A DNA stretch of 28,960 nucleotides from a virus: positions 1-28,960 of IMG/VR virus record IMGVR_UViG_3300035703_000345. The stretch is one strand, 5' to 3'. The notes beneath the pieces are model-generated. The model made no database searches. It saw nothing but the letters and a program-made list of their open reading frames with translations, and had not been told where the DNA came from. A program made the translations under genes and the position numbers. The stretch's first letter is position 1. Every line of letters starts with the position of its first letter. Of this stretch, positions 549 to 28,960 are shown in pieces.

Positions 549-557
549 GGTGTGTCC

Positions 558-782
558 TCAGTTCACTAGTTTAGCGAGCCAAGTGCCGGCAACGCTGACG
601 ATTGCGCCAATCGCCGCCGACACTCCCATGAGATACCCGCGAGCGTGCTCGAGGTTGCGAAGCCGTGCGTCGTGATCCTTGAGTTCCTCCTGCTGGTGAC
701 CCTGCATGGCGAGCAGCGAATCGACCTTGCCCTCCAGGCGGCCAATGGCGAGGAACAGTTCGTCGTGGTGGGGGGAGGTCAT
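558..782 (-). CDS. Small coiled-coil plus single-TM protein, holin-like (XhlA-like)
   Basis: Seen: 74 residues. Residues 8-47 form a charged heptad-like helix (IGRLEGKVDSLL, then EELKDHDARLRNLEHARG), followed by one hydrophobic segment at about 50-71 (YLMGVSAAIGAIVSVAGTWL) and a four-residue tail. Known: this N-terminal coiled coil plus C-terminal membrane anchor is the architecture of XhlA/hemolysin-type holin accessory proteins, which often sit just after tail fibre genes in phages. Inferred: a lysis role, as holin or holin partner, with the endolysin outside the window. No endolysin is visible here. The ATG at 782 lacks a strong Shine-Dalgarno and lies 7 bases after the TAA of the tailspike gene, so it probably depends on translational coupling. 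It could instead be a tail-anchored accessory protein. Confidence 0.7.
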   Translation of the reverse strand: MTSPHHDELFLAIGRLEGKVDSLLAMQGHQQEELKDHDARLRNLEHARGYLMGVSAAIGAIVSVAGTWLAKLVN

Positions 783-789
783 GGCATAA

Positions 790-2718
790 TTACGCTGGAG
801 TCACACTTGCGGACCCGTCCACGACGTACCAAGGCGACACGTCCGTAGCGCCGCTCGAGTACATCATGCGGTTGTTGGTGGTGTCCCAGACGAGTTGTCC
901 CGTGTGCTTCCCGCCGAGGTTGATTGCGTTCGTCTTGTCCGCGATGGCGGCTGCCGTGGCCGTGGTTGTCGTGGCGAGAGAGTCGGCACTCGTTGCCTCC
1001 AGGCAGTCGCCAGGAGCCTGGTATCCCTCGATTGTCCACCGGACGTACCGCGCTGTTGTTCCGGTCGTGGCCGGGTGTCGGATGGTGATTCCGCCAGTTG
1101 TTTGATTTCCGGCTGACGCGGTAAAGCGTCCTGCCATCAACGCACTGCTATTGTTGTTGTTGTTGTACGAGACTGGCTCAACCTTGATGATCGGGGCGCA
1201 ATCGATTCCGTTCGTCGCCACCATCGCGGGTGCTGACGCAACCGCCGTCGTTGTCGAGTTGTTCGTGAGCTGCACGACCGCAGAGGTCGGTGAATTGCGG
1301 AACGTGATCGGCCCGGTACGCACCGATCCTGAACCAGAAACGGCAGAAATCACCAGTGTGCCAGCTGCTGTGTAATTGCTGAAAGGAACGTCGATGCTTG
1401 CCTGCCCGATGTATGCGTTGCAGTTTCCAGGAGTTACGTTTAGGGGAGCCGCCCATCCAGCCGTTTCGTTCCTGACCGCGATGGTGCCGAACGTGATGTT
1501 GCTCTGGTTTCCCGGAGAACCAGACTTGTTGTACCAGAGCGCAGTTGAGTTCGGCGTGTTGACGCATGTGAACTGGCTGATGTGGATGCTGTTGCTGTCG
1601 GTTTGCGTGATCAGCGGATACCCGCCGCAACCATCAACCGTCAGGTTGCCGATGTCCACCTCGTTGCTTTGGACGATGTAGCAATCAACGCGGTCGTTCT
1701 CAGGCACGGGATCCTGACCGTTGTTGCGCCCGATGTACGAGCCGATGCTGATGTTGTCGCAGTTGAAGATGTACAAACTTCCTTGCTTGAACGCTTCAGT
1801 GACAATGTTGCCAACGGAAATGTTGCGCAATCCCTGCGCCCCATCACCCTGAAACTTGACTGCCCGGTCTGTGGTGGCACTGGTTCCCGCACCCTGAAGC
1901 GCAATAATTGAGTCGATGGTGACGTTGTTGGTGTCGAGCTGAAACTTGACGCCATAGCCAAAGTTCTGCGCCCAGATCCTGCCGAACGTGCTGTCGCTCA
2001 CATTGACGATAAGTGGGTTTCCCGCCGATCCGCTATTGTTGATGTATGGCGTGTCGCGAACATTGATGTACGGCACGTTCCACCGTGTTCCACTCAGAGA
2101 TACGCCGCCACCCATTGATCCGTACACGGTCGCGCTCAACGTGTTGTCGTAGATTTCGCTTGCCGTTCCACTCGTGTAGAACGCGAGGACATGACCGTTG
2201 CTTACCGTGATGTCCCAGAATGTTCTTGCCAGCTTGTTGACGTACACGGTCGGCGTAAACCAATTGCCCGACGGAGATCCCGGCACCGCAGTCTGGTTCG
2301 CCGAGTTGCCGTCGATGGCGCCGACGAAGCTTGTGTTTGACGTAATCGTGGATGGCGATGGATCTGTGCCTTCGCTCATCAGCACCGAGCATCCGACCGA
2401 TGGCGTGTATTCGCCGTTGCCGAGCTTGATCGTGCTTCCGCATCCAAGCCAGCGCATGCCAGACTTCCACAGCAGGCAGTAGCGCGTTCCTGCCACGCGC
2501 CGAACGAGGTAGGTCTTCCCAGCCGTACCACGCACCTCCTTCAATGTATTCAACGCATTTTGTATCGCCGCGGTGTCATTTGTTACGCCATCACCAACTG
2601 CACCGAAATCCTCTACGCTCACAACATCGCGGAGCTTGTCGAGCGCCGTGCGCTGGGTCGCGCCGGTGCCGGCGGCGAGGAACGTGACCTGTTCGGAGGT
2701 TGGTTTGGTCATGGGCAT
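790..2718 (-). CDS. Second tailspike, pectate-lyase-3 type beta-helix (642 aa)
   Basis: Residues 31-54 (DVVSVEDFGAVGDGVTND and following) are the hallmark start of the pectate_lyase_3/right-handed beta-helix fold found in phage tailspikes and depolymerases. The body (about 100-450) is full of short Asn/Gly-rich strands such as NCDNISIGSY, typical of helix coils. A C-terminal beta domain follows, with GQLVWDTTNNRMMY near residue 610, common at spike tips. Unlike the larger spike two genes upstream, it has almost no N-terminal virion anchor: only a short segment (TSEQVTFLAAGTGATQRTA) precedes the lyase fold, so it may attach through the first spike. The likely role is surface polysaccharide recognition or cleavage. 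Two ATGs (2718, 2712) are possible; GAGGCGAG upstream fits either. The codons for about residues 515-525 include an (AAC)n run giving five Asn. Confidence 0.88.
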   Translation of the reverse strand: MPMTKPTSEQVTFLAAGTGATQRTALDKLRDVVSVEDFGAVGDGVTNDTAAIQNALNTLKEVRGTAGKTYLVRRVAGTRYCLLWKSGMRWLGCGSTIKLGNGEYTPSVGCSVLMSEGTDPSPSTITSNTSFVGAIDGNSANQTAVPGSPSGNWFTPTVYVNKLARTFWDITVSNGHVLAFYTSGTASEIYDNTLSATVYGSMGGGVSLSGTRWNVPYINVRDTPYINNSGSAGNPLIVNVSDSTFGRIWAQNFGYGVKFQLDTNNVTIDSIIALQGAGTSATTDRAVKFQGDGAQGLRNISVGNIVTEAFKQGSLYIFNCDNISIGSYIGRNNGQDPVPENDRVDCYIVQSNEVDIGNLTVDGCGGYPLITQTDSNSIHISQFTCVNTPNSTALWYNKSGSPGNQSNITFGTIAVRNETAGWAAPLNVTPGNCNAYIGQASIDVPFSNYTAAGTLVISAVSGSGSVRTGPITFRNSPTSAVVQLTNNSTTTAVASAPAMVATNGIDCAPIIKVEPVSYNNNNNSSALMAGRFTASAGNQTTGGITIRHPATTGTTARYVRWTIEGYQAPGDCLEATSADSLATTTTATAAAIADKTNAINLGGKHTGQLVWDTTNNRMMYSSGATDVSPWYVVDGSASVTPA

Positions 2719-2720
2719 GG

Positions 2721-2870
2721 TTACTCGCCTCGCGCTTCTTGGATGACCGAACGCAGGTATGCGTCAAGGTCCGTGCCAGACATGCCGGCGACGGTTGCCG
2801 GGTTCACGGCAACGATGGTTCCGTCGATCTTGTATACGCCTTCTGATATCTGCTGCGCTTCCATGTTCAT
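2721..2870 (-). CDS. Small protein between the two tailspikes (49 aa)
   Basis: The reading frame is open further upstream (to 2945), but I place the start at the ATG at 2870, which overlaps the stop of the upstream tailspike as ATGA; a second ATG lies at 2864. The product is MNMEAQQISEGVYKIDGT... ending VIQEARGE, soluble, with no membrane segment. Its middle (GVYKIDGTIVAVNPATV) reads as a short beta hairpin and its end as an amphipathic helix. No strong Shine-Dalgarno is present, in line with coupling to the tailspike. Placement between two spike genes suggests an adaptor or assembly chaperone, but this is inference from position only. I do not recognise the family. Confidence 0.6.
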   Translation of the reverse strand: MNMEAQQISEGVYKIDGTIVAVNPATVAGMSGTDLDAYLRSVIQEARGE

Positions 2871-5506
2871 CCCATTGAAAATAGCGTGAATACACGCGAT
2901 GATCCGAGTCGGTTCTTGATGCGGATCAGGTCGCTTGCGATCCACACATTCAAGTCGGTATCCACATCAGGGTTCGTCGTATTTGCAAACGACACGTTCG
3001 TGCCAGCCGAAATCGAAGTGATCGTGTTCGTTCCTTGAGAGAACAGGAAATTCGTCGTGCCATCAAAATTGCTGCTGATGAAACGCAGGCTGCTTCCGTT
3101 TGGTAGATAGCCCTTTGCCGGGAATGAGTACTCGGCATCGTCAGCAACGACAACGGCCTGCACGGAATACATGCCTCCGTCAGAAGAATCACTCGGAGCA
3201 ACGTCACCGAATCGCGGAACAAATGCCGTGGCTTGCGCCTTGTCAGTGCGCTCTGCCAAACCAATGTTGACATTCCCAAGCGCGATGATTTTTGCCGGGT
3301 AGTACGAGGTAGGCGAACTGGTGTTGATTAGGTGGCGCACCGGAGTTGCCGTCCAGTTCACGTTCCCGGTCGCAACGATGAAGTTCTTGTCGTACGTGCC
3401 GCTCGACGAATTCGACATGAAGCTGCGCGTCATCTTGCTTGCGTGGTTGTCGCAGATCGTCAGGTACATCTCGCCTTGACCAGCACCTCGCAGCGAGATG
3501 TTGGCGAAGTCTTGGACGGCACCGCCGCACACCCGATTGTCCTTGAGCGACTGGAACACCGGGTAGGCGGATGATGTTGACTCACCCATGACCAGCATGT
3601 TGCCAAGCACGCCAGTAGCCTCTGGCACATTGTTGAATGCAACATTTCCAATGGCGGTCACACTGCGCGGGCGTGAATGCGCAGAACCAGGATACAGAGA
3701 AATGCATGAGCCACCAACGGTTCCCAGGGTTCCGGCGGGATCAAATGGATTGAGGTTGCCCGGAGCGACATCGAAGTGCCAGACGTTATGACTGACATCG
3801 CCAGCAGCAATCTGGCAGTTGATGATTCCGCCAGAACCTCCGGTGATTGGCAGCATCGCAAACCTGACCGTGTTGTTGACGATCACGGACTCGTCGTTCT
3901 GCACCTTGATCGAGCGGCCCTTGCAGTTCACGAACGAGTTGTTGCTGATCGTCGCCGTGGACGGGATGTACGTTGTTCCGGTCGTGTTGCCGCCCGTGAT
4001 GACAATGCCGTCGCAATCGACATTGTTTGCGCTTGCTGTGGTTTCGTTGTTCTTGATTTCTTGGAACAGACATCCGCTCACGTTTACGTTCTGCGGGTAA
4101 TACGCCGAAAGAATCCCAACGCCAATTCCAGACGTTCCAGCCGACCCAGGAGTTCCGGCACCTACTGCGCGATTGTGGTCCGAGGCGATGCAGTTCGTAA
4201 TGTTCACGAATCGGTAGCCACCAAGAATCGTTGCTCCGTTGTTGGCGACATACCCATCGACACCACCCACAATGCCGTATGAATTGACAAACGCGCAATT
4301 CGTAAGCGCGATGTCGTTCGTACCCTGCGCTGCGCCCTCGTCAATACGGATACCAACGAGACACATGTTGTTTGCGTCCAGCGTGATGCCTTCCATTGAG
4401 AAGTCGTAGCCCGCTGCGGTCAAGTAGAACATGTGCGAGCGATGCGAACTCGCCGTGCATTTGATGGTTGCAGAATCACCTACAAGCCGAAGGTTTCCAT
4501 TCAACGTAAAGGCAATCTGCCTGCTCGCTGTTCCACCAGTCGATGACATCGCGTAGATGCCAGACGGGAAATACAGCGTCTTGCCAGCGGTCATAGCCGC
4601 CGTCATCGCCGTCTGGATGGCTGCGCGGTCATCCGCCACGCCGTTACCGACCGCGCCGAAATCCTTCACGCTGACCACGTCACCGAACTTGCTCGCCGCG
4701 CTGCGGGCCACCGCGCCCGTACCGCTCGGCGTGTAGGTGACGAGGTCCGCGCTGGTCGCGCCGATGTTGTTCGTCAGGAAGTTGACGAACTCAATGTTGT
4801 TCGTCCCAGCAACCGGAGCCGCCGAGAACGTCAGCGTCGTGCCGGCAATCGTGTACGTGCTGCGCTGCTGGTACACGCCGCCGATGTAGACCTGGGCGCT
4901 GTTGCCAAGCGCACCCGGGTCGCTCGCCAGCGTGAACGCCGTCTGCGAGCCCGTGCCGCTGAACACCTGCCGCGTGATCGTTGCCGGCGCACCGCTCGAG
5001 CCAGCCGTCACGACCGACGGAAGACCGTTGGCGTCGAACGACAGGAACGAGTTGGCGCGTTCGGTCTTTGTCGGCAGCTCCATGTTGAGCGTGCCGTCCG
5101 AGATCGGGATCTTCAGCGTGCGGTCGCCGATGTCGGCAATCTGCTGGATCTGGATCGTGGCACGGTCCAGCGAGTCGGTGATGACCTCGGGGTAGAACCC
5201 GCCCTGATTCGTCAGGTCGGTGGGCTGGAGGTTGGCGATGTCCGACGTGATCGTCAGTGTGAACCCCGAAGCCAGTGCGCCGGCGGTCAGGGTGACGGTG
5301 CCGCCTGGGTTGCTGTTCTGATCGCCGTTGAGCGTCACCGTGTAGTCGGTCGTGAGCACCAGCGTGCTCTCGGTGCCCGTGCTGACGGTCAGCTTGATGA
5401 CGTCCAAGTCCGTGGCAGCAAACACTTTGAACGTGAACGGGAACGCGCTGGCGGTCCCATTACCAGTAAACGGCCCGGCGATTCGCGTCGTGCTGCTAAT
5501 CGTCAT
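2867..5506 (-). CDS. Primary tailspike with T7-fibre-like anchor and pectate-lyase fold (879 aa)
   Basis: Residues 1-125 resemble the N-terminal virion-attachment domain of T7-type tail fibres: an opening MTISSTTRIAGPFTGNGTA, then DYTVTLN, NPGGTVTL, and a helix with DSLDRATIQIQQ. Residues about 177-245 are a second short beta domain frequent in phage fibres (GTGSQTAFTL ... AQVYIGGVYQQ). From residue 276 a pectate_lyase_3 beta-helix starts (DVVSVKDFGAVGNGVADD), nearly matching the downstream spike. The C-terminal part probably trimerises. The role is adsorption, probably with polysaccharide-degrading activity, at the tail tip. The start ATG at 5506 overlaps the stop of the giant gene by four bases (ATGA) and has GGAGAGCAAGCG upstream. 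The beta-helix part looks less G+C-rich than the anchor, consistent with receptor-binding module exchange. Confidence 0.92.
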   Translation of the reverse strand: MTISSTTRIAGPFTGNGTASAFPFTFKVFAATDLDVIKLTVSTGTESTLVLTTDYTVTLNGDQNSNPGGTVTLTAGALASGFTLTITSDIANLQPTDLTNQGGFYPEVITDSLDRATIQIQQIADIGDRTLKIPISDGTLNMELPTKTERANSFLSFDANGLPSVVTAGSSGAPATITRQVFSGTGSQTAFTLASDPGALGNSAQVYIGGVYQQRSTYTIAGTTLTFSAAPVAGTNNIEFVNFLTNNIGATSADLVTYTPSGTGAVARSAASKFGDVVSVKDFGAVGNGVADDRAAIQTAMTAAMTAGKTLYFPSGIYAMSSTGGTASRQIAFTLNGNLRLVGDSATIKCTASSHRSHMFYLTAAGYDFSMEGITLDANNMCLVGIRIDEGAAQGTNDIALTNCAFVNSYGIVGGVDGYVANNGATILGGYRFVNITNCIASDHNRAVGAGTPGSAGTSGIGVGILSAYYPQNVNVSGCLFQEIKNNETTASANNVDCDGIVITGGNTTGTTYIPSTATISNNSFVNCKGRSIKVQNDESVIVNNTVRFAMLPITGGSGGIINCQIAAGDVSHNVWHFDVAPGNLNPFDPAGTLGTVGGSCISLYPGSAHSRPRSVTAIGNVAFNNVPEATGVLGNMLVMGESTSSAYPVFQSLKDNRVCGGAVQDFANISLRGAGQGEMYLTICDNHASKMTRSFMSNSSSGTYDKNFIVATGNVNWTATPVRHLINTSSPTSYYPAKIIALGNVNIGLAERTDKAQATAFVPRFGDVAPSDSSDGGMYSVQAVVVADDAEYSFPAKGYLPNGSSLRFISSNFDGTTNFLFSQGTNTITSISAGTNVSFANTTNPDVDTDLNVWIASDLIRIKNRLGSSRVFTLFSMG

Positions 5507-8500
5507 CGCTTGCTCTCCGGCGTGGCGGTGCCAGTAATCATCCCCCGAATCATATCGTAGCCCGATTCGGGTTCGATCTCGCCGCGTTCAACGTCGATCA
5601 GATATCCGGCAGGGCGACCGAGCGCCGACACCGGGACGCCGGTCAGCAGCGTGATGAGCGTCAGGACGTCACGCACATTGCGGCCCGTCACGTCCTTGTC
5701 CTCGTCGGTCACGGCGATGATGGCCTTGCTTGTGCCGATAGTGGCCGACTCGAGCGCCGCGATGGACGGGCTGGTCGTAATGCGGTCGTCGTACGGCTTG
5801 TCGTTGAACGCCGTAGTAATCGCCGTATAAGCCGTGCTTCCGAACGGCAGCAGCGCCGCCCCCATACGGACCTGGCTTCCGAAGAACCAATCCATGAACA
5901 CGTCCATGTAGCCGTCTTCGTCTTCGTCATCCCAGCCGCCTCCGAGACTGCGGACGATGGCGTCGGACACGATTGCCGGCAGCAGCATGCCCATGACGTA
6001 GATGTAGAGCAGGCGCCCCTTGCCGCTACGCCAGCCCATGTCGCGCACCGTCTTCTGGAACTCGCCAAGGTTCAGGTTGGCGAGCATGTTGAAGTACCCG
6101 GTGAACTGCACGAATGTGCGGTAGAACGGGGTGCCGACCTCAAACATGGACAGGTCTTCCGGGCTCAGGCTGCCCTGCGTCAGGCGTACCGCGGCATCGC
6201 CACGGGCAACGGCCTCGGTTTGCGTTTCACCCTCAGCGAGCGCCTGGTTGTAGGCGCCATGCCAAGTCGTGACGTCCACCATGTTCTGGAACGCCTGCTG
6301 CAAGAAGTAGCCGTGCTTGCTCGACCACTGCTGCAATTTCTCATACTTGCTCGGGTTGAGCAGCAGTTCGTTCATCGTGCCCTGAAGCTCAAACATCTGG
6401 TTGCGCATCCGGTCGGCCATGAACGGCGACAGGACGGCAACCGCCTCGGCGGTCTGCTTGGGCGATCCGAGGTACGTCATCAGGGCCGATTGCAGATAGC
6501 GCCGCTTGACCTTGAGCAGCGACGGGAACCAACCCGTGAACTGTTGCAGCGCGTTGCGCAGGTTGGCAAACATCGTCGCCACGCCGGCGCGGGACCGCAC
6601 GCCGCCCCAGAACTTGTCGGCCAACTTCCACCTACCAGGCTCCATTGCCTGCTGGCGGGCAGCGCGGTTGAGCCACGGCAGCAGCATGTTCTCCATGACC
6701 GCCGGGTCAAACCGCTCAAGCAGAGCCTTCAGGTCGCGGTCGCGCAGGATCTTGAGCGCATCCTTCACCGACGGCTGAATCATGGAGAACCGCAGCACTG
6801 CGTCGGTATGCGTGGCAATCAGGCGCAGGTCAAGCGACAGCGCTTCGTTGTAATCAACGCGGCCCTTCGTGAAGCCGGCACCCGTGGACGGGAGCGAGTT
6901 GCGCCAGTCGCCTTCCAGTTCGTCCATGCTTGCATTGACGCGGGCATCCTGCACCATGAACTTGTCGGTGGCCGCCGGCACATAGCCGCCCCGATACGTC
7001 CCGAACGGCGTCACGACCTCGGTGGCTTCAACTTCCTTGAAGTAGTAGCCGTACATGTCGAAGTGAGCACGCTGGGCGAGCGGCTTGATCTCCTCGAGCA
7101 GATCCCAGATCGACTGCACGAAGTCGTAGTCGGACTTGGTCAACTTGCCCTCGGCGATCATCCGGGCGATGAACGACCGCCATCGGCTGTCGTCCAGATT
7201 GCCATCGGCGTCGAGTTCGCCCCATCCACGACCGAGCAGCAACTTGCGGTAGTTGCCATCGTTACCAGTGTGCATCAGGGCTCCAAGCAGTTCTGCCCTG
7301 CCGATGCCCCCGTTGCCGTTGCCGAACGTGTAGTCAAGTTCAGGTGCCGCGATCTTGCCGACGGTCAGATCGATGCCGTCCAGCAGCTTGACAAACCGCT
7401 CCACGTACTTGTTGCGCTCAATACGGTACGCATCGACCGCTTGCTTGACCGGGCGGAACAGGTACTTGGTGAACGCTCCAGGACCGGCCATGCCATCGAG
7501 TGCGTCAGCCCAAGCCTCAACGCGGCTCATCATGGCACGCAGGCCAAGCAGATGACGATTAGCCTGATCGACGGCACCAGGGGCCTGGCGCTGGCCGACG
7601 CGCTCGCCGACGCCGATGGCCTGCAACCGATCCGCCATCTCCTTCAGGACGAGGTCGAGCGCCACACGCTCGCCATCAACCGTGATCTGGCGGTCACGAC
7701 GAGCTTGGGCCCACAGCGCCTGCACCGTGTCGCGCAAGACCCGGAACTCGGTGACCGTGAGGTCGCGGTAGTCATTCGTGCCTGACAAGGACTTCAGCAC
7801 GATGGGCGCGATCCCGTCGTACAGGTCAGGCGCGTAGGTGCGCAATTGGTCGAGGTACTGGGCCGGCGATTCGCCACGCTTGCCGTACCCGTAGTACGAC
7901 AGGATGGCCCGGGCCGCCATGATCGGCGCCATGTCGCGGGTCTTTGCCAGCTTCTCGTCCGACCGGAAGAACTTGCTGAAGTCCCGGCCGGCGACGGCAA
8001 TCTCCTCCTTTGCCAGCATGGCCTCGCGGGCCAACTGGTTCTGGACGAGCTGCTGACGCTTGGCGCGGCGGGCAACCTCTGCCGGCTCCCGACCGCCGTA
8101 CTTGGCATCGAACTCGGCACGCCGCTCCTGTGCCTTGGCAACCGCCGCTACGCCAGCCTCGGTCGCAGCCACGGTCGCCTCGTCGGGAGTCTGGCCGGCG
8201 GCGATGGCCTCGTTGTAGGCCCGCGTTGCAGCCGCCTGGCCTGCCGTAGACGGGTCTTGGGGCTCCCGGTAGGCCGTGGTAGCCGTCCGCGCAGCCTCGG
8301 CTTCAGCGGCCTCGTAGCGCCTCGGATTGAGTGTCCGGATAACGACACCGCCGATGATGTCTTGAGCGACCTGACGGGCAGCCTGCAACATGTCGTTGGC
8401 CGGGCGCCGCTGCTTCTCAAGCCACCGCTGCTCAACCGCGATGAACCGCGCTCGGGCCTCGTTGTGGATCGCCATGTCCACCGCAGCCTGACGGGCCTCG

Positions 8501-11500
8501 GGGGTCGCCAGGTCGGAGTTCTCGTCCAGCATCCGTTGGTCGGTGCGGGCATCGATCTCTTCCTTGATTGGCTTGGCGCCGAGGATGGCGTTGATGAACT
8601 CCACCCCGCTCCCGTAGCCGAACATCCCAGCCGCCATGTCGGGATCGATACCGCCCTCCTGCACCATCCCGTACTTGCCGTACTTGAGGCTGGCCGGGTC
8701 GAAGCCCGCCGGCATGATCGCACGCACCTTGGCGAGATCAAGCTTGAACGCGCCCGTGGCCGCCGTCACCTCGCCCGTATCGGTGCGGATCGTCCCCTTC
8801 TTCAGGAACTCCATCGCCCGATACACGGGCTCCAACTGCACCTGCGCCGAAACCTCCTCGCGGATCTCCTTGCGGGCGCGGTCGTGCTTGGCTTGGATCT
8901 CGCGCAGGTACTTGCTCTGCGCGTTGCCGTACCACTGCAACTCCTTGAGCGTGGCCTTCGTGAGTTCCGCCGTCGCCGCGTCGGTCGCGTCCTGCTCGAG
9001 CGCCTGATACGCCGCCCACTCAGCATCGTTCATCCCGCTCTGTTCCTGCGTCTGGAACATCGCCTTCATCCCACGCACAACCTGGGCGCGAGCGATCTGC
9101 TCGTCGGTCGCCAGCATGCGGTCCATGACGAGCCGGATCTCGCTGCTCATCATCGGCAGGTCACGACCGAATTGCGCCTTGTACGTCGCGTTCAGCTCGT
9201 CGCGGATCGACTTGTACACGCGCTTCAACCAGGCGGCGAACTGGTTGAACAGCGACTGCATCTCCACGCTCGGCGCCTTGCCCTCGTGCAGGTAAATCTC
9301 GAACGAGTACGCGAACTGCTCGTGGTACTGGCGCTGCTGGTCGATGGTCAGACTCGACCACTTCGCCAGACGTTCTGCTGGCGTGGCGCCCTCAATCCCG
9401 AACCACGTCAACAGCGCATCCATGTCAGCCTTCGTCTGCTGCGGCCCCGTGGCGCTGCGGGCGATGTCGGCAAGGATGGTCAGGTAGAAGTGAGCCGTCT
9501 CGTGCGCAAATGTGCTGAAGTCACGCCCCTCGCGGAGCGTAGTCATCAACTTGGCGGGGTCAAACTCGCCACGCGGGGCGCGGGCCGCTTGGAATAGCGG
9601 AAGGCCCGACTCCAACTTTTTGACCATCTCGGGCGTGACGAGGAGACCGGGCTGATTTCCAATGACGGTCGCTCCGGAAGGTGCTTCGCCACGACCAAGT
9701 TCCTGCCGTTCCATGATGGCCGTCAGGCGTTCCGCTTCGGTCCAGTCACCTCTCCGTTCCGCAGCCATGATTTCATCGTTGGTGACACGACGCTCAGTCG
9801 CCATCGCTACCTGCACCATCTTCCCGCCGCCGTACTTCTTTAGCAGCTTGTTGACCGACGCCGGGACGATCTTGTCGTAGAAATCAATCATCCCCCTGCC
9901 GCCGACCTTCAGGCCGTCTCCACGAACATCTACCCATCCCTCCTTATTGGGCTTTCCGTTGATCGTTTGCTCGGCAACATCTTTGCCAACCGTGTCGGCA
10001 AGTTCTTCAGCCGTCATCACTTTCTGGCCAGATTCGCTAAAGCCATCACGATTACGAAATAGTGGACTTCCGTCAACGCCTTCGATGTACGTCAGATACC
10101 GCCCATCGGCCTGCTTGTTGACCGATAGCAATGAAACCTGCTTGCTCAGGTCGTAGCGATCCGCGCTCTGCTTGCCGTTGACGAACGCCACGCGGTCGTA
10201 GTTGCCCTGCGTAGCCTCAAGCAGGATGTGCTTCAGGCCGAGGTTTAACCAGCCGTCCGTTGTTTCGACGAATGGGGCAAGCGGCACGGCAACAGGTTTT
10301 ATGAACGCAAGTGCATCGGCCTTTGCCTCATCAATTGTGTTTCCATAAAACAAACTGCGTCCGACAATTCCAACTGGCAACTCAACAACCGCCATCTTCG
10401 CGTCATATGGAGAGGTTCCTGGTTCATATAGCTTGGTTCCTGCTGGCAAAGTTGAAAGCATCGGGCTTGCAAAACCCTTCTTCCGTCCCGCCTGCCCCCA
10501 GTCGCTCTGGATCTCCTCAACAAACAGCACGCGCTTTCCGTCCGCATCGACGCGGTCGTTCAGGCGGAAGTGAACAAGGACGTTTGGCTGCTTCCAATGG
10601 CTTGACCTGAAACCTGCTGGCCGTTGACGCAACGTATCTAGCCGTGCAGATTCTTCCTCCGTCATGTTCGCAACATAATCCTCGCCATACTTCTGCTGCA
10701 TCTTTCGCAAATATGTCCCGAATTCATCTTGCTGAAGTCGCGGCAGCATAATCAGCACCTCGCGGTAGTTTGTGCCGCCGGGAAGCGTGTACTGACCGAA
10801 CTTCGTTGTAGTTTTGCCGCTACGCTGCACGCGCTTTACGCGCACGCCGTTGTTCTTGAGGAACTCGGCCACGGCTTCCTTCGTGACCTTGCCATCCTGC
10901 ATGTCAAGCCAGTCCGTAAGGCCGCTCCAGTCAACCTCGTCCTGCTTGACCTCGCCTTTGTTGACAAGCCCCTTGATCCGCTCCTTCCACCCGGACGGCG
11001 CAAGGCTCTTGGCGTCGATAGCATCGACCGCCTTGGCGAGCGCGGAGTAGAAGCCTGGGCTGACGGGAGCCTGCTCAAACATCGCCGCCTGCTCAAACAC
11101 CTTGGGACTCGTGATGTTGAAGCGGCGCGAGAGCGGGACGACGTTGCCAGCCTCGTCGCGGGTGACGGGGTCGGCGAGCTTGATCTTGTTCTCATTGAGT
11201 ACAACAACGGATGTCATCGGCTGCGAATAGTGGGAGTCACGTAGCCGGACAATGTCGTAACCCTGTGCCCTTGCCGTGCGCTGAATGTCTTTCCAACGAG
11301 CACCGGTTCCGTTGCCCTCAAAGTCCCACATACCGCCGGCGAAATATTCCTCTACTGGATCAGCTTCAAATCCAGTAGCGCGGTCGATGAAGTCGTAGCC
11401 TGACTCCTTGGCCCACTCTTGAATCCACGCGACTGCCTCCCTTGATCTTGAAGCCAGATCAAGCGTCTTGCCGCCAACATAGAACCGTCGAACATCACCG

Positions 11501-14013
11501 TCTGCGGCGTAATCCTTGGCGACTCGTTCATCGTACGTCGTGAAGATGCCAGGCTCGTTTCGGCGTCGTGCTGCATATTCCGTGATGTTGAATCGACTGT
11601 CACCGCGCCATACCTCTTCAGTCAGACCACTCGCCTTAGCCGCCTCGTCCACCATGCGCTGCGCCGTCTCCATGTCGCCGCGCTCAACGGCGGCGAGGTA
11701 GTCGGCGTCGATGCGGGAGGCTTGCTCAAGAACTGGTGCGGATGGCAGCCGGTACATCGTTGCGCTGATCGCAAAGTCCTTGTTAGAACCCTTGTTTTCA
11801 ACAAATCCAAGGCGCTTGTACCACGCGATCAAACGCTTCTTGCTTGCCCCAAACTCGCTTGTTGGTGAAACATCAATGCGCTTACCAGATTGATCTGCGT
11901 AAGCGATCAGGCTTTGCATCGCACGTGTTGCTCGTCCTTCATCCCGTAGTTCCGCTGGAACACGAATGATTCCTGGCCGAATCGTCGTGGAGGTTTCCGT
12001 AAGACGCTGTTCAACCCCAAGATCGGCAAATGACTGCTCGACATCCGCTAGCGTCATTTGTGCCGCCTGCTCAAGCGGCTGCCCCTCCTGCACAACCTGG
12101 GGTCCGCGGACGCGGTACGGGTATCGCTCGTAGAACTGCTCCGGCGTAATGCCCATACGCGCAGCCTGAGTCACAGCGAGGTCGCGGAACAGCTCGGCGT
12201 TGGCGCGGACCTCGATGTCCTGCATGCCAGTCTGTCGCAACTGCTCGGCAACGGTCGTTTCTACCTTCTGTGCAGACTCCACGAACGCAGCGTCTGCTTC
12301 CTGCCGCTCGGCAAGAGCAGCCTGGGCTTCCTGACGCAACGCATCACGCTTACGGCTGAAATCCTGTGCCTGCGCAACGCTCATAGCCTCTGGGCTCAGG
12401 CGCACGTGCGGGCGCAGCGCGTCGCCAAGAGACGTGCCGGCGAGCCGAGCCCCGTAGACCGACGTGGGGATCGTCACGTCGCCGCCGTTCTCGAGGGCGT
12501 TGCGCAACTGCTCGCGGATGCCGGGGATCGACTGCTCCAACTGCTCGGCGCTCAGGCCGCTCTGCGCGAGAACCTGGGCCGCAGCCTCAGCCTCAACGTA
12601 GACCGTGTCGGCGGTCGTACCCTTGGCCTGACGGGCGAGGAAGCCCTCGTAGGCGTCGAGGTTTCGCTTGGGGAGCTTGCCGTCCTTCTTGGCTGCGTCG
12701 AGGCCGTCGAAGAACTCCTCTTGCGCAGAAACCGCCTCGGCACGTCGAACATCGACCATCAACGACAGTCCGGGGCCAGCAGCGCCAATCAATGCGCTGC
12801 CTTGCACTCCAGCGGCAAAGTCACTGGCGATATTCTTCGCCATCTGACTCCACGTGAAATCGGTAGGCACGCCGTCGATGGCCTTGCCGAGTTCAGAGAA
12901 CGCATCAGCGACAAGACGCTGACTGCCTTCCTCCGCACCGCCGACAGCCATCTGCTTCAGGGTCTGCTTGCCGAATTCAGCAGCCGCGCTGCGAATTGTC
13001 GGTTTCGCCAACTGCTGGGTCAGTTCCTGCCGCAGGAAACGCGTGATCGGCTTGAACGAACCTGCGAACAACCTGTCGCCGACCAACTCAATAATGCCGA
13101 TGACAGTCCCGCCGGCAACGGATGCGTAGTACGCCGTCTCTGGTTCCACCCCCTGTGCAACCATGTCGTCAAACAGGAAGCCGCCTTCCACTTGGGCGCT
13201 TGTGCCAACGATCCCCGCTTGCAGACCAGCGACGAACCCGGCGGCGGCGCCTGGCGGACCACCGACTGCACCACCAACGCCTGCACCCATCAATGCCACT
13301 GTGCCGACGGGACGGGCCATAGCCAGTGCTTGCGCCGTCACCATTGCCGCACTACCGAAGAACCCGGATGGTTCCTTATTCGCTAATTGCTTCTCTAAGA
13401 AGGCAATGCGATCATTCAGCACCGTCTCGTTCTCTGGCGTTCCACCGAAGGCGACGTAGCCCTTGCGACGTGATTTCAAAGCTCCAAGTTCAGCGCCGAG
13501 TTCACCAATGGCGTAACCATCCTCAAGCACCTTGGCGATGCGCAACGCTTGGCCGGGTCGGCGGTCGAACAGTTCTGGACCGATGAAATTTACCGCCTTG
13601 TCGAACAGGCTTGAAGTCTTCTCCAACGAGTCCAGATCGTCGTGCGCCTGCGCTGCAAACACGGGGTCCAGCAGCGACTGCGCGAGGCGCGGGTTGTTCT
13701 GCAACATCCCACTGCGCTGCACGCTGGCGATCATCGAACGCCGACGCAGTTCGTCCATGTTGCGCAATGCCAAGTCCTGCCCGATGCCGAGCGGCGTGCC
13801 CAACTTCGTGGCCTCTGCCGCCTGGTCAGGGTTGATGCCTGCTACGGCTGACAACGATCCCACCGCCGGTGGCTGCGACACGGTACGCACCGCAGGAGCC
13901 AAATCCATAAATGGATTGTCGGTCGGCATGGTCGGAGCCGCAGGCGGCTTCGACATCCCGGCGGCGATGTCCATGAAGGGATTGACTTCCGTCGGCGTTT
14001 CTTCGTTCTGCAT
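5503..14013 (-). CDS. Giant internal virion protein / large polyvalent protein (2836 aa)
   Basis: This occupies the slot of T7 gp16 and is twice its length. Visible parts: a repeated NPFMD motif (11-15, 33-37); a hydrophobic Gly/Ala-rich stretch (217-275); a region common in phage polyvalent proteins (466-552, with DVTIPTSVYGARLAG); the C-terminal half of a GNAT fold (653-757, EGRATRAM, WYKRLGFVENKG, DFAISATMYRLP); an ADP-ribosyltransferase-like domain (800-948, VWRGDSRF, GIFTTYDERVAKDYA); a conserved domain with VEEIQSDWGQ (985-1470); a zincin with HETAH (1504-1508) and HEQFA (1564-1568); long helical segments (1640-2400); a likely membrane helix (2668-2692); and a conserved end (VSALGRPAGYLIDVERGE, 2795-2812). 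Known: such proteins are packed in virions and enter the cell with DNA. No lytic transglycosylase was recognised. ATG overlaps the preceding stop as TAATG. Individual domain activities are inference. Confidence 0.9.
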   Translation of the reverse strand: MQNEETPTEVNPFMDIAAGMSKPPAAPTMPTDNPFMDLAPAVRTVSQPPAVGSLSAVAGINPDQAAEATKLGTPLGIGQDLALRNMDELRRRSMIASVQRSGMLQNNPRLAQSLLDPVFAAQAHDDLDSLEKTSSLFDKAVNFIGPELFDRRPGQALRIAKVLEDGYAIGELGAELGALKSRRKGYVAFGGTPENETVLNDRIAFLEKQLANKEPSGFFGSAAMVTAQALAMARPVGTVALMGAGVGGAVGGPPGAAAGFVAGLQAGIVGTSAQVEGGFLFDDMVAQGVEPETAYYASVAGGTVIGIIELVGDRLFAGSFKPITRFLRQELTQQLAKPTIRSAAAEFGKQTLKQMAVGGAEEGSQRLVADAFSELGKAIDGVPTDFTWSQMAKNIASDFAAGVQGSALIGAAGPGLSLMVDVRRAEAVSAQEEFFDGLDAAKKDGKLPKRNLDAYEGFLARQAKGTTADTVYVEAEAAAQVLAQSGLSAEQLEQSIPGIREQLRNALENGGDVTIPTSVYGARLAGTSLGDALRPHVRLSPEAMSVAQAQDFSRKRDALRQEAQAALAERQEADAAFVESAQKVETTVAEQLRQTGMQDIEVRANAELFRDLAVTQAARMGITPEQFYERYPYRVRGPQVVQEGQPLEQAAQMTLADVEQSFADLGVEQRLTETSTTIRPGIIRVPAELRDEGRATRAMQSLIAYADQSGKRIDVSPTSEFGASKKRLIAWYKRLGFVENKGSNKDFAISATMYRLPSAPVLEQASRIDADYLAAVERGDMETAQRMVDEAAKASGLTEEVWRGDSRFNITEYAARRRNEPGIFTTYDERVAKDYAADGDVRRFYVGGKTLDLASRSREAVAWIQEWAKESGYDFIDRATGFEADPVEEYFAGGMWDFEGNGTGARWKDIQRTARAQGYDIVRLRDSHYSQPMTSVVVLNENKIKLADPVTRDEAGNVVPLSRRFNITSPKVFEQAAMFEQAPVSPGFYSALAKAVDAIDAKSLAPSGWKERIKGLVNKGEVKQDEVDWSGLTDWLDMQDGKVTKEAVAEFLKNNGVRVKRVQRSGKTTTKFGQYTLPGGTNYREVLIMLPRLQQDEFGTYLRKMQQKYGEDYVANMTEEESARLDTLRQRPAGFRSSHWKQPNVLVHFRLNDRVDADGKRVLFVEEIQSDWGQAGRKKGFASPMLSTLPAGTKLYEPGTSPYDAKMAVVELPVGIVGRSLFYGNTIDEAKADALAFIKPVAVPLAPFVETTDGWLNLGLKHILLEATQGNYDRVAFVNGKQSADRYDLSKQVSLLSVNKQADGRYLTYIEGVDGSPLFRNRDGFSESGQKVMTAEELADTVGKDVAEQTINGKPNKEGWVDVRGDGLKVGGRGMIDFYDKIVPASVNKLLKKYGGGKMVQVAMATERRVTNDEIMAAERRGDWTEAERLTAIMERQELGRGEAPSGATVIGNQPGLLVTPEMVKKLESGLPLFQAARAPRGEFDPAKLMTTLREGRDFSTFAHETAHFYLTILADIARSATGPQQTKADMDALLTWFGIEGATPAERLAKWSSLTIDQQRQYHEQFAYSFEIYLHEGKAPSVEMQSLFNQFAAWLKRVYKSIRDELNATYKAQFGRDLPMMSSEIRLVMDRMLATDEQIARAQVVRGMKAMFQTQEQSGMNDAEWAAYQALEQDATDAATAELTKATLKELQWYGNAQSKYLREIQAKHDRARKEIREEVSAQVQLEPVYRAMEFLKKGTIRTDTGEVTAATGAFKLDLAKVRAIMPAGFDPASLKYGKYGMVQEGGIDPDMAAGMFGYGSGVEFINAILGAKPIKEEIDARTDQRMLDENSDLATPEARQAAVDMAIHNEARARFIAVEQRWLEKQRRPANDMLQAARQVAQDIIGGVVIRTLNPRRYEAAEAEAARTATTAYREPQDPSTAGQAAATRAYNEAIAAGQTPDEATVAATEAGVAAVAKAQERRAEFDAKYGGREPAEVARRAKRQQLVQNQLAREAMLAKEEIAVAGRDFSKFFRSDEKLAKTRDMAPIMAARAILSYYGYGKRGESPAQYLDQLRTYAPDLYDGIAPIVLKSLSGTNDYRDLTVTEFRVLRDTVQALWAQARRDRQITVDGERVALDLVLKEMADRLQAIGVGERVGQRQAPGAVDQANRHLLGLRAMMSRVEAWADALDGMAGPGAFTKYLFRPVKQAVDAYRIERNKYVERFVKLLDGIDLTVGKIAAPELDYTFGNGNGGIGRAELLGALMHTGNDGNYRKLLLGRGWGELDADGNLDDSRWRSFIARMIAEGKLTKSDYDFVQSIWDLLEEIKPLAQRAHFDMYGYYFKEVEATEVVTPFGTYRGGYVPAATDKFMVQDARVNASMDELEGDWRNSLPSTGAGFTKGRVDYNEALSLDLRLIATHTDAVLRFSMIQPSVKDALKILRDRDLKALLERFDPAVMENMLLPWLNRAARQQAMEPGRWKLADKFWGGVRSRAGVATMFANLRNALQQFTGWFPSLLKVKRRYLQSALMTYLGSPKQTAEAVAVLSPFMADRMRNQMFELQGTMNELLLNPSKYEKLQQWSSKHGYFLQQAFQNMVDVTTWHGAYNQALAEGETQTEAVARGDAAVRLTQGSLSPEDLSMFEVGTPFYRTFVQFTGYFNMLANLNLGEFQKTVRDMGWRSGKGRLLYIYVMGMLLPAIVSDAIVRSLGGGWDDEDEDGYMDVFMDWFFGSQVRMGAALLPFGSTAYTAITTAFNDKPYDDRITTSPSIAALESATIGTSKAIIAVTDEDKDVTGRNVRDVLTLITLLTGVPVSALGRPAGYLIDVERGEIEPESGYDMIRGMITGTATPESKR
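9586..12078 (-). repeat. Five-residue inter-domain linker motifs in the giant protein
   Basis: Within the 2836-residue protein the motif [P/V/M]-[L/F]-[E/F]-Q-A occurs at residues 646-650 (PLEQA), 761-765 (VLEQA), 972-976 and 978-982 (VFEQA, MFEQA) and 1472-1476 (PLFQA), at DNA 12064-12078, 11719-11733, 11068-11100 and 9586-9600. Each falls at an edge between recognisable domains. The coordinates given span the set. Confidence 0.6.
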
Positions 14014-25606: not shown

Positions 25607-26059
25607 TCAAATCTCCTTGGAATGCATCCGCTCGGTCAGAGTGTAACCCATGATGCCGAGGATTCTTGCGGCAGGTGTCTCATCTCGCCCATTCATCACG
25701 AGATCGCTCATAGCCACGTACTTCAAACCGCGTTGCTTGGCCTCGCGCTCAAACGCCTGCATGAGCCTGATGCCTGCCATGCCACGATGCGCGGGATCAA
25801 CCCACCACGCGAGCTCCACAGCAGTCTGCATGTGCGGCGCAAACCAGAGCGGGCCGACAACGCCAAGGATGCCGCCGATGATTTGCTCGCCGTCGAGCGC
25901 AACGAACGAAACTCCACAGTCGATGACCGCGCTTATACCGTTCGCTAGTTGCTCGTCGGTCAGATGGTCGTTGATCGACCTGTACTCGCTGAACTGGATG
26001 AACTGCCTGCCCATCGTCAGCAGTGCAGGAACGTCATCGCGGTTTGCTAGTCGGATCAT
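25607..26059 (-). CDS. Free-standing GNAT-family N-acetyltransferase (150 aa)
   Basis: I take the ATG at 26059, which overlaps the large terminase stop as ATGA and has GAGGGAATGGA upstream; the frame remains open for another 285 bases but that part is the terminase gene read out of frame. The product shows a complete GNAT fold: MIRLANRDDVPALLTMG start, strand SFVALDGEQIIGGILGVVG, motif A ELAWWVDPAHRGMAGIRLMQ with the acetyl-CoA pyrophosphate loop around R92-G96, and motif B AARILGIMGYTLTERM. Known: GNATs in this slot (between terminase and portal) occur in several podovirus groups with no proven substrate. It probably acetylates a host or phage protein late in infection. Confidence 0.88.
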   Translation of the reverse strand: MIRLANRDDVPALLTMGRQFIQFSEYRSINDHLTDEQLANGISAVIDCGVSFVALDGEQIIGGILGVVGPLWFAPHMQTAVELAWWVDPAHRGMAGIRLMQAFEREAKQRGLKYVAMSDLVMNGRDETPAARILGIMGYTLTERMHSKEI

Positions 26060-27375
26060 TCCATTCCCTCGTATGGGTCGTAGTCGCCTGGCCGTGTGTC
26101 GATGCGGTCGCGCACCTCGCGTGGGAGTTGCTTGCCCACGGGGAACGCGAACGTCAGGGCCAGCGCGTCGGCGATGTCCGGGCTCGCCCCACCCTGTAGC
26201 CGGCGCTTGATGTCGTCCTTGGACTCGAGCACCCGTCTGCCGTTGCTGTCGTACGAGTACGTTGGAGTGGCGAGTTCGGCCTTCAGGAACGGGTCGTTGG
26301 GGATAGCGCCGCCCTGCTCGAGCCATTCCCGCATGGTCCACCACATCTCCGTGCGCCTGTTGACGAAAAGGCCGGGGTTGTTGGGCTTGCCGCCGAAGTT
26401 CACCTCCACGATCCCGTATCCCAACTGGCGCAGACGGTCGATCACGCCGGCACCCCCGCCAACGTCGATGAACACGCCGTCCGGGTCGCGCTCCTCGATG
26501 ACGTTGGCTACCCGACCTGCCAGGCTCATGTTGTCGATGCCTCGGTAGACCTGCGGCTCAAACGCCACCAAGCCCTGACGCAGCATGATGACGCTGCGGT
26601 CGTCGCCGAACCGAGCCGGGTCAACACCAACAACAAGCGGCGAGTCAATGATGTCGCCGTCTGCGTACCGGCGCCGTGCTGCGCCCTCCGCGTCAGACAG
26701 CGTGATGAGCTGATCGTCGCCGGCTGCGCTGAAGTCGCACAGGTACTCGCGTGCGAAAGCCGACTCGGGCATGTCGCGGCGCAGGCGCTTGACCTCGTCG
26801 CGGTCGATGGCGTCCGTATCATCGACGGTATAGAGCGCAGACCACCAGTCCTCGAGGCCGTTGGAACGGTAGAACAACTCGCTGAACAGGTTGATGCCCG
26901 ACGGCGTGCCGATGAACATCGCCCAGCCTTTGCGGTCGGACAGGGCCGGCTGCACGATGTCTGTCCAGACCTCGGGCTTGATCTGGGCAACCTCGTCAAT
27001 CACGCAGCCGTCGAGCCGGACGCCGCGCAGGGCGTCGGGGTTGTCGCCGCCGAACAGGCGGATGGTCGCGCCGTTGTGTTTGAACACGACGGCCAGATCG
27101 ACCTCGTTGATGTCGATGGCCCCGGTCGTGCGCATGGGGCGCAGTTTGTCCTTGAGCCGAGCCCATGCGATGGCCTTGGCCTGGCGCAGGAACGGCGCGA
27201 TGTACACATAGAACCCGAGCGGCTGTTTGCATTTCAGAGCCTTGTCCAGCAGCTCCATGATGGCGAGTTCAGTCTTGCCGGCACGTCGGTGCAGGGCAAG
27301 AACGGTGAACCGCTTGCGCTTCAGGTGACATTCCCGCTGCCACTGGCGCGGGCTGTAGTCAAGGCTTATCGGCAC
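26056..27375 (-). CDS. terL: Terminase large subunit, GTG start (439 aa)
   Basis: The DNA-packaging motor ATPase and nuclease. Walker A is HRRAGKT (29-35), Walker B CVIDE (124-128), the coupling motif FIGTPSG (154-160). The RNase H-like nuclease has acidic residues D252 in VVGVDPARFGDDRS, D304 in GVFIDVGGG and D400/D403 in GGASPDIADALAL, all present, so both activities should be intact. The start is GTG at 27375, inside the small-subunit gene with a 17-base overlap and only a weak AGGCG upstream; the N-terminal sequence DYSPRQWQRECHL matches the normal family beginning. It docks on the portal and cuts concatemeric DNA. The downstream GNAT is coupled by ATGA. Confidence 0.95.
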   Translation of the reverse strand: MPISLDYSPRQWQRECHLKRKRFTVLALHRRAGKTELAIMELLDKALKCKQPLGFYVYIAPFLRQAKAIAWARLKDKLRPMRTTGAIDINEVDLAVVFKHNGATIRLFGGDNPDALRGVRLDGCVIDEVAQIKPEVWTDIVQPALSDRKGWAMFIGTPSGINLFSELFYRSNGLEDWWSALYTVDDTDAIDRDEVKRLRRDMPESAFAREYLCDFSAAGDDQLITLSDAEGAARRRYADGDIIDSPLVVGVDPARFGDDRSVIMLRQGLVAFEPQVYRGIDNMSLAGRVANVIEERDPDGVFIDVGGGAGVIDRLRQLGYGIVEVNFGGKPNNPGLFVNRRTEMWWTMREWLEQGGAIPNDPFLKAELATPTYSYDSNGRRVLESKDDIKRRLQGGASPDIADALALTFAFPVGKQLPREVRDRIDTRPGDYDPYEGME

Positions 27376-27913
27376 TGGGCACGCCTGTGATGACGGTCAG
27401 GTTCACGCCGCCGGCATGGTCCACGCCGACCTTGTCGCCGTACTTCTTCGGGTTCCACTTGGCAAGAAGCTTCAGCCGCGTCTCGACTTGGAGGCGACGC
27501 CACGCCACCTCGACCTGATCGGCTGGCTTGGTGTCGGCCAGTTCCTTGCACTCGTCGGCGATCACGTCATGCCCGTCCTCACGTGCGCGTGCGATGCGTG
27601 CCACAAAGTCTGGATCCTTGTCCATCCAGTGGTACACAGTTCGCCATTCCGGGTTTCCTGGCTGCCTGCACCATTCGCGCAGCGGCTTGCCCAACGTGAG
27701 CCAAGCGACCAAGTCGTCGGCTAGGTCTTGCGGGACGGGCTCTGGCGGTCGGCCTATCGGGCGCGGCGCTTGGCTGCCTTCGACTTGTCCGCTCGCACGA
27801 ACTTCTTTGCGACGGACATAGGGACGCCGACCTTCTTTGCGAACGACCGGGAGTGTGCTGCCGCCTGCATCAGGCGCTTCTGGGCGGGTGATTTGCTTGG
27901 CATCAGGTTTCAT
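27359..27913 (-). CDS. terS: Terminase small subunit, Sf6-type (184 aa)
   Basis: Start chosen at the ATG at 27913; upstream codons in this frame translate the preceding gene out of frame. Residues about 1-60 are a basic, Pro-rich tail with GRRPYVRRK and PIGRPPEP. A helix-turn-helix-like region follows at 64-112 (LADDLVAWLTLGKPLREWCR, TVYHWMDKDPDFVARIARAR), then a helical oligomerisation region (GHDVIADECKELADT, AWRRLQVETRLKLLAKWNPK, KKYGDKVG), all typical of Sf6-like small terminases. It recognises the packaging site in phage DNA and recruits the large subunit. Its Shine-Dalgarno is weak and its start overlaps the upstream gene by 11 bases. Confidence 0.88.
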   Translation of the reverse strand: MKPDAKQITRPEAPDAGGSTLPVVRKEGRRPYVRRKEVRASGQVEGSQAPRPIGRPPEPVPQDLADDLVAWLTLGKPLREWCRQPGNPEWRTVYHWMDKDPDFVARIARAREDGHDVIADECKELADTKPADQVEVAWRRLQVETRLKLLAKWNPKKYGDKVGVDHAGGVNLTVITGVPSADKP

Positions 27914-28148
27914 TCTTGTATGAAAGGTGGATTTCCAGTCCAACGGATTCGGCGATGGCGATGGCGCTGGCGAGGTTGCAGCCCTTGCGGCGGATCTTAG
28001 GGGCGTCCGAGAGCAGGCACCGCACGTTGTGTGCGGCCATGCGGTCCTCGGCGTCCATGCGGACGGCCAGCGCGTTGGTGACCTGCCCGGTCTGTGCCAT
28101 GTGCTCGCGCACGGCGGCCTTCCAGTCCTCAAAGCTTCGTACGATCAT
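27903..28148 (-). CDS. Small protein, possibly HTH DNA-binding (81 aa)
   Basis: The product (MIVRSFEDWKAAVREHMAQT ... LASAIAIAESVGLEIHLSYK) is soluble and helical. The C-terminal part, with CLLSDAPKIRRKGCNLASAI and IAESVGLEIHL, resembles the last helices of small Xre-type DNA-binding domains, in which a hydrophobic helix ends with a short 'GLEIHL'-like strand. The assignment is weak and based on pattern only. It lies directly before the small terminase gene and overlaps it by 11 bases, so it could regulate the late operon or belong to the packaging complex. No strong Shine-Dalgarno is present. Confidence 0.65.
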   Translation of the reverse strand: MIVRSFEDWKAAVREHMAQTGQVTNALAVRMDAEDRMAAHNVRCLLSDAPKIRRKGCNLASAIAIAESVGLEIHLSYKNET

Positions 28149-28160
28149 GGCGTGATTATA

Positions 28161-28448
28161 TCAGTCCTTGGTGCTGTTTATTCCAAAATCTTGGATAGTT
28201 GCAGCCCAGACGAGTCGCGGTGTTCCCGGACCCATCCATCGTGCCTCGATCTCGTCGGTGACGAAGCACCGGGCTTCGACCTGGGTCATGCCCTGATCGT
28301 CGCGTAGTCGGGCTGCGATCATGTCCGCGCTGTAGACGACCACTGGCGGCCCGGTCTCGCCGGCTCGAGGGTAGTGAACGCCGAGGATGCAGTCATCGAG
28401 GCCCGCCAGCAGCACCTGCTTCCCCTGACGTCTGCGCTTGCGTGCCAT
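28161..28448 (-). CDS. Conserved small phage protein of unknown function (95 aa)
   Basis: A basic start (MARKRRRQGKQ) is followed by LDDCILGVHYPRAGETGPPV, then VVYSADMIAARLRDDQGMTQ, VEARCFVTDEIEARWMGPGT and PRLVWA. This pattern (a D-x-A/C-I-L-G strand, Y-(S/D)-x-D-x-I helix, GM-x-x-x-E-A helix, N/D-x-E-x-x-x-x-G-x-x-TP loop) is one I recognise from small phage hypothetical proteins, but no role is known to me. It overlaps the upstream gene by 56 bases. A GTG at codon 12 preceded by AGGGGAAGCAG is an alternative start with a better ribosome binding site and a shorter overlap. Confidence 0.7.
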   Translation of the reverse strand: MARKRRRQGKQVLLAGLDDCILGVHYPRAGETGPPVVVYSADMIAARLRDDQGMTQVEARCFVTDEIEARWMGPGTPRLVWAATIQDFGINSTKD

Positions 28449-28960
28449 GACCGGGATTGTACGGGCCGGCCAGCCGTGCCCTCCACACGGCTGCGATGTT
28501 CCGGACGCTCTTGTCGGCGAGATCGTTGCGCACGACGGTCGCTGGCGATGGTCCTCCGTCGAGGTACTCGGCTAGCCAGCGGCGGTAGAGCGATTCTGCG
28601 TCTGCGTCGGACAGTCCGTTCGTGCGCAGTTTGGCGAGCGTGAGCTCGCGCTCCTGCTCGACCTTGGCGGTCATCACGGTGATGCCATCGGCAATGACCT
28701 CATCCTCGGTGACAGCCCTCTGTTGTCCGTCCTCTCCCTTGACATACCAATCCCCCGCCCCCGCCCGTTCGACCCGCGTACGCCAGGCTGGCTCGCGCAT
28801 CAGCAGACGTCGCATCGCGTCTCGAGGAAGGGGGGTAGGGGGGGTTTTGTTTGTAGTTGTGGTTGTGGTTGTAGTTGCTGAAGCCACCCTAGTAGGGTTG
28901 CTTGAGCCACCCTGCGTTTCTGCTGGTAGGGTTGCTTGAGCCACCCTAGTAGGGTTGCTT
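28393..28960 (-). CDS. Unknown protein, 5' end uncertain or beyond the window
   Basis: The body from about the ATG at 28815 (MRRLLMREPAWRTRVER) to the stop at 28393 is coding-like: helical, charged, with DGGPSPATVVRNDLADKSV and NIAAVWRARLAG. The frame remains open to the window edge. Its upstream part, with a possible GTG at 28944, encodes a repeat-derived low-complexity stretch with eight consecutive Thr and PPTPLP, which looks more like untranslated repeat DNA than protein. Two choices remain: a start at 28815 (141 residues, weak GAGA ribosome binding site) with the repeats as leader, or a start beyond the window. I do not recognise the family. Placed upstream of the terminase genes, it may be the head of the packaging operon. 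Confidence 0.6.
   Translation of the reverse strand, partial: SNPTRVAQATLPAETQGGSSNPTRVASATTTTTTTTNKTPPTPLPRDAMRRLLMREPAWRTRVERAGAGDWYVKGEDGQQRAVTEDEVIADGITVMTAKVEQERELTLAKLRTNGLSDADAESLYRRWLAEYLDGGPSPATVVRNDLADKSVRNIAAVWRARLAGPYNPGHGTQAQTSGEAGAAGGPR
28830..28880. repeat. Low-complexity tract: G runs and GTTGTG-type repeats
   Basis: On the plus strand two runs of six and seven G (28830-28835, 28838-28844) separated by TA are followed by short repeats of GTAGTT/GTGGTT up to 28877. On the minus strand, if translated, this gives poly-Thr and Lys-Thr-Pro-Pro-Thr-Pro. The runs are prone to slippage and sequencing error. Confidence 0.75.
28882..28902. repeat. Operator-like inverted repeat, copy 1
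   Basis: A 21-base near-perfect palindrome: ten-base half-sites around a central G, AGCCACCCTA and TAGGGTTGCT, with one mismatched pair. An identical copy lies at 28939-28959. See the matching finding for interpretation. Confidence 0.8.
28939..28959. repeat. Operator-like inverted repeat, copy 2
   Basis: Identical to the palindrome at 28882-28902, 57 bases away. A 21-base direct repeat made of its half-sites in the opposite order (starting TAGGGTTGCTTGAG) also occurs at 28893-28913 and 28927-28947, 34 bases apart. The array reaches the window edge, so more copies may follow. Confidence 0.8.

Follow-up and report, generated by a model that had tools for sequence, protein, structure and literature searches.

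Array and host gene

The window, i.e., the whole stretch of DNA analysed (28,960 nucleotides), is an entire virus record that stops at position 28960, and at this right end the 3' part of a putative replication-initiator gene carries an array of short palindromes (Table 1). The repeats pointed out by the first-pass annotation were re-found in the sequence at the same positions: two identical 21-base palindromes, AGCCACCCTAGTAGGGTTGCT, at 28882-28902 and 28939-28959 (57 bp apart), and two direct repeats, AGGGTTGCTTGAGCCACCCT, at 28894-28913 and 28928-28947 (34 bp apart). A one-base-pair difference between the half-sites AGGGTTGCT and AGCCACCCT makes the palindromes near-perfect rather than perfect. 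Pairs of half-sites build a 20-bp palindrome, AGGGTKGCT-NN-AGCMACCCT, present as four units with spacings of 23, 34 and 23 bp, of which one is degenerate and one truncated. The control region proposed for this edge thus has real repeats, but not an intergenic position, as they lie inside coding sequence; likewise, the limits of 28882 to 28960 enclose copies of the repeat, but the array extends both ways, to a degenerate copy on the left and, as the relatives indicate, to further copies beyond the contig end on the right. Searched on both strands, the 9-bp half-site AGGGTKGCT occurs six times in the window, always within 28882-28959 (0.3 copies in dinucleotide shuffles), and ten times in a relative of 39.8 kb (G001), always from 24868 to about 25095 in one gene (0.4 in shuffles). 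Among relatives, the palindrome including its 2-bp gap is the recurring unit, the AGCCACCCTAGTAGGGTTGCT-type 21-mer being the junction of adjacent units; the exact 21-mer had no match in the genome contig collection.

Table 1. Features of the array, its host gene and the neighbouring packaging genes.
Feature	Position	Strand	Basis or remark
Large terminase	26056..27375	-	Neighbour, outside the putative origin
ORF with small terminase (Sf6-like, PF20901, residues 135-236)	27359..28132	-	Neighbour, outside the putative origin
Putative replication-initiator gene, 3' part, 188 codons visible	28393..28960	-	Reading frame; full-length relatives L002-L013, L114
C-terminal helical domain of the putative initiator	28393..28829	-	Common to phages with differing N-domains and repeats
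Poly-C tract AAAACCCCCCCTACCCCCC	28830..28848	-	Right boundary of the exchanged cassette; A vs B identity resumes here
ACAACC-type hexanucleotide array, encodes a Thr run; candidate strand-opening element	28847..28873	-	Equivalent position in relatives
Degenerate candidate iteron	28871..28890	-	A single clear half-site (AGCCACCCT, 28882-28890); 23-bp spacing from the next unit
Candidate iteron AGGGTTGCT-TG-AGCCACCCT, 20-bp palindrome	28894..28913	-	Sequence
Candidate iteron AGGGTTGCT-TG-AGCCACCCT, 20-bp palindrome	28928..28947	-	Sequence
Candidate iteron truncated by the contig end	28951..28960	-	Complete in relatives

The 5' part of the gene, with an N-terminal DUF1376 domain, is expected from the relatives to lie beyond the contig end. 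Among the 48 related loci compared, the full-length genes encode, in this order, the DUF1376 domain, the repeats in a disordered linker, the ACAACC array (27 bp at 37% GC vs. 62% for the genome), the poly-C tract and the helical C-terminal domain. The match to PF07120 (DUF1376) exceeded the curated cut-off in L011, L019, L040 and L043, and several of the PHROGs families matched by relatives are named primosomal protein. In named phages, the DUF1376 gene is annotated as "replication protein" or "primosomal protein", adjoins DnaB and has linker repeats, and neither the window DNA (blastn) nor the visible protein found a match when searched against named phages. In the window, no recognisable helicase loader was found next to the initiator gene. 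As to the remaining coding capacity, a reading frame of 2836 amino acids on the minus strand (5503-14013) probably encodes a large virion protein, G001 has one of 3226 amino acids at 335-10015, and just upstream of the G001 initiator gene the minus strand of L192 (3780-4319) gives a PHROGs "ferredoxin" match (E 5.6e-8, 40 residues).

An AlphaFold2 model (mean pLDDT 83.8) predicts a helical domain with a beta hairpin, a long helix and a folded helical C-domain, the last two separated by a stretch of low confidence at about 120-166. The main array of type A, the repeat type of L114, maps to the low-confidence linker, and one iteron and an extra half-site lie within the wing predicted between the strands of the hairpin, at codons ~73-83. 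Foldseek returned nothing significant for the full model among solved structures (best E 0.6). The VIA-align matches were mostly winged helices, including ORC2, DnaD and the N-domains of RepA-like initiators (Z 4.8-6.4); all had Z <8, below the level of kinship, and indicate at most a shared fold. An alignment of the highly diverse DUF1376 domains was too variable to serve as a search query.

Joint exchange of domain and repeats

Visual inspection gave five repeat types besides type A: B (GCAATGC/GCATTGC), C (GGTGACCGT), D (GGTGCA...TGCACC, where HTH_36 takes the place of DUF1376), E (CCAATGGC) and F (AGCATG). Phages of types A and B share ~90-92% identity on either side of a replaced cassette of ~760 bp, which spans the N-domain, the repeats and the hexanucleotide array and ends at the poly-C tract; their palindromes are entirely different, and the C-domain and terminase genes are retained. 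Two C-terminal variants were both found with each type (14 and 4 loci for A, 16 and 2 for B), and in type D an HTH_36 or "replication initiation O-like" domain stands upstream of the C-domain common to the DUF1376 types. The N-domain and the palindromes are therefore exchanged jointly. The conserved GGGGGGTAGGGGGGG tract at the cassette boundary, 28830-28844, is possibly a recombination joint or a G-rich structure, and a similar C-rich tract is also seen at the E. coli ydaU junction.

The same comparison bears on other functions that palindromes at this place might have. A packaging (pac) site, recognised by the small terminase encoded just downstream, had been considered in view of the nearby Sf6-like gene; yet the unrelated A and B palindromes replace each other wholesale where the terminase genes belong to one continuous, ~92% identical stretch, and the position of these genes in the conserved flank uncouples the repeats from packaging. 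It is the N-domain with which the palindromes change, and E. coli prophages share the arrangement with a helicase loader, not a terminase, as the next gene, so that a pac site is very unlikely. Disordered linkers tolerate any DNA site, and a partition site or another protein-binding site might merely be located there; nevertheless, the sites and the presumed N-terminal DNA-binding domain are swapped as a single unit, the scanned part of G001 showed no recognisable partition gene near the array, and we regard this explanation, too, as scarcely probable. The operator array of the first-pass annotation, at which the gene product or another regulator would control transcription, draws on the palindromic half-sites and on the possible autoregulation by a winged-helix protein that binds its own gene. 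Two points nonetheless make an operator unlikely: the sites are situated >200 bp into the gene, and the DNA-binding domain is exchanged along with them. Moreover, sites at codons ~73 to ~150 followed by the hexanucleotide array are a pattern found again across diverse DUF1376 genes and better explained by an origin, although the sites may have a secondary regulatory effect.

Selection on DNA

Repeats within a gene can be a by-product of a repeated peptide, and a low-complexity linker whose repeats are largely in frame, as in type C and some type E genes, would be compatible with such an origin. In L114, however, the four 20-bp units lie at frame positions 0, 1, 0 and 1 and are read as RVAQATL or GGSSNPT/GGSSHPT, an identical 20 bp being read as both RVAQATL and GGSSNPT inside the one gene, and the unit in the wing loop reads RVAQATLP in L114 and KGGSSHPQ, in a different frame, in L153. 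As the same unit is read in two frames, what is conserved is the DNA and not the peptide. L114 has 43 out-of-frame direct and 25 inverted 9-mer repeats, against means of 1.6 and 4.8 in synonymous-codon shuffles, none of 300 of which reached the observed counts. Most other repeat types exceeded synonymous shuffles in at least one measure; L128/L129 and L162/L163 did not, and the repeats of type C are nearly all in one frame, which makes the frame test uninformative for that type. Taken against the two-frame reading within one gene, the differing loop frames and the shuffles, an origin of the repeats at the protein level is extremely improbable, and for type A it is contradicted. Selection on DNA rather than protein, as argued earlier from the sequence of the window, is thus supported, as is the "iteron-like site" named among the early suggestions, and where relatives keeping the peptide while the palindrome decays would have spoken for the protein, the opposite was seen: the palindrome was kept and the peptide changed.

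A putative origin inside its initiator gene

We take the palindromes for initiator sites of an origin inside a gene, on the strength of the repeats themselves, their reading in two frames, their exchange together with the N-domain and, in E. coli prophages, the pairing of C-domain and helicase loader. Judged from sequence, they are very likely the iterons to which the initiator binds, part of a phage replication origin situated within the gene of its own initiator. The N-terminal DUF1376 winged-helix domain would bind the palindromes, carried by the codons of the disordered linker, the strands would open at the A+T-richer ACAACC array after the iterons, and the helicase or its loader would be recruited by the C-terminal helical domain; binding to DNA, opening of the strands, recruitment of the helicase and the status of a working origin are what we infer from this arrangement.

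In lambda O and ori-lambda, and likewise in the origins of Stx phages, the initiator gene carries iterons and an A+T-rich tract in its middle (PMC7466680). As in lambda, repeated candidate initiator sites lie inside the initiator gene here, and in the E. coli examples a helicase loader is encoded next door (ydaV; a lambda-P-like gene in L307). Unlike lambda, the N-domain is DUF1376, some sites are located in what is predicted to be the wing of the DNA-binding domain, and the window phage is without an adjacent loader gene. The Pfam search of full-length relatives gave no lambda O-type family, only DUF1376 or, in type D, HTH_36 with weaker HTH-type matches. The Rac protein YdaU, of the family PF07120 (PHROGs "primosomal protein"), shares with the phage proteins the N-terminal domain, the linker repeats and a separate C-domain, whereas Pfam records the function of this family as unknown. 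In the literature consulted, the papers naming DUF1376 do not deal with its function and no description of an origin inside DUF1376 genes was met; in-gene origins of the lambda type are already known, and the DUF1376 version is apparently undescribed there.

On a broader level, DUF1376 is probably, though less firmly, the origin-recognition domain of portable cassettes made of an initiator and its own origin, which are exchanged at a fixed junction and whose C-domains follow the helicase loaders; each DUF1376 version would carry the cognate sites in its own linker and, for some clades, in the binding-domain wing as well. If true, this would assign a role to a widespread phage domain whose function is unknown, allow replication origins to be located from sequence in phages and prophages carrying DUF1376, illustrate cleanly how a protein and its DNA target move together as a unit, and make the location of E. 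coli oriJ testable.

E. coli prophages

The Rac prophage has an active origin, oriJ (PMC3945230), and its DUF1376 gene ydaU, with linker repeats, adjoins a DnaC-like gene. In K-12, ydaU matches DUF1376 with 92 bits, its linker contains copies of the GTTCAAACA repeat, one of them inverted (repeats TGTTCAAACA), and ydaV encodes the DnaC-like loader. Among E. coli prophages, DUF1376 and its repeats are combined with either of two C-domains, and each C-domain goes with a helicase loader of its own: L307 has the N-domain and repeats of K-12 with a DnaT-type C-domain and a lambda-P-like loader. Conversely, one C-domain is also found with another N-domain and other repeats, L305 combining the C-domain and ydaV of K-12 with a different N-domain and GTAACGC/GCGTTAC repeats. 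The exchange junction again lies directly after the linker. The shuffle test was modest for ydaU (16/1000; 35/1000 for the control ydaV). No placement of oriJ relative to ydaU was found in the literature on oriJ; a position inside ydaU is predicted, as a direct corollary of DUF1376 being the origin-recognition domain family-wide. In E. coli strain 10159 (L308, 1801-3971), an IS3-family transposase interrupts ydaU near the linker.

Occurrence in bacterial DUF1376 genes

The main sample comprised 71 non-redundant bacterial loci, with 182 neighbouring ORFs as controls. Out-of-frame and inverted 8-mer repeats reached p<=0.05 in 26 of the 71 DUF1376 genes vs. 14 of the 182 ORFs, and p<=0.01 in 10 vs. 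2, many DUF1376 genes being individually not significant. In 23 of the 55 loci long enough for the repeat-window test, the strongest window of the locus fell in the DUF1376 gene (12.5% expected, p=5e-8), mostly at codons 97-124. Repeat clustering was also present in 12 of 25 loci of a second set (p=0.017), in which a single common motif was not supported. A universal GCANTGC-type palindrome was tried and rejected: it was tenfold denser in the DUF1376 linkers of the 71 loci (4.55 vs. 0.46 per kb), part of which had been seen when the motif was picked, and its excess in the 25 loci of the second set (1.08 vs. 0.45 per kb) was not significant. For these reasons only clade-specific repeats are claimed.

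The DUF1376 genes of L128/L129 had no clear repeats, and the short DUF1376 proteins (~125 aa) of L162 (3001-3375) and L163, without linker, C-domain or repeats, depart from the pattern. Dipeptide arrays, for the most part Pro-Ser/Ser-Pro and with TCA nearly always as the serine codon, were found in 21/71 DUF1376 genes vs. 4/182 ORFs. In the DUF1376 genes of L193-L272, hexanucleotide arrays at codons ~112-216 encode SP, HS, QS, ST and SE, again almost always with TCA for serine and hence with TCA every 6 nt, which looks like a DNA-level element, possibly involved in strand opening.
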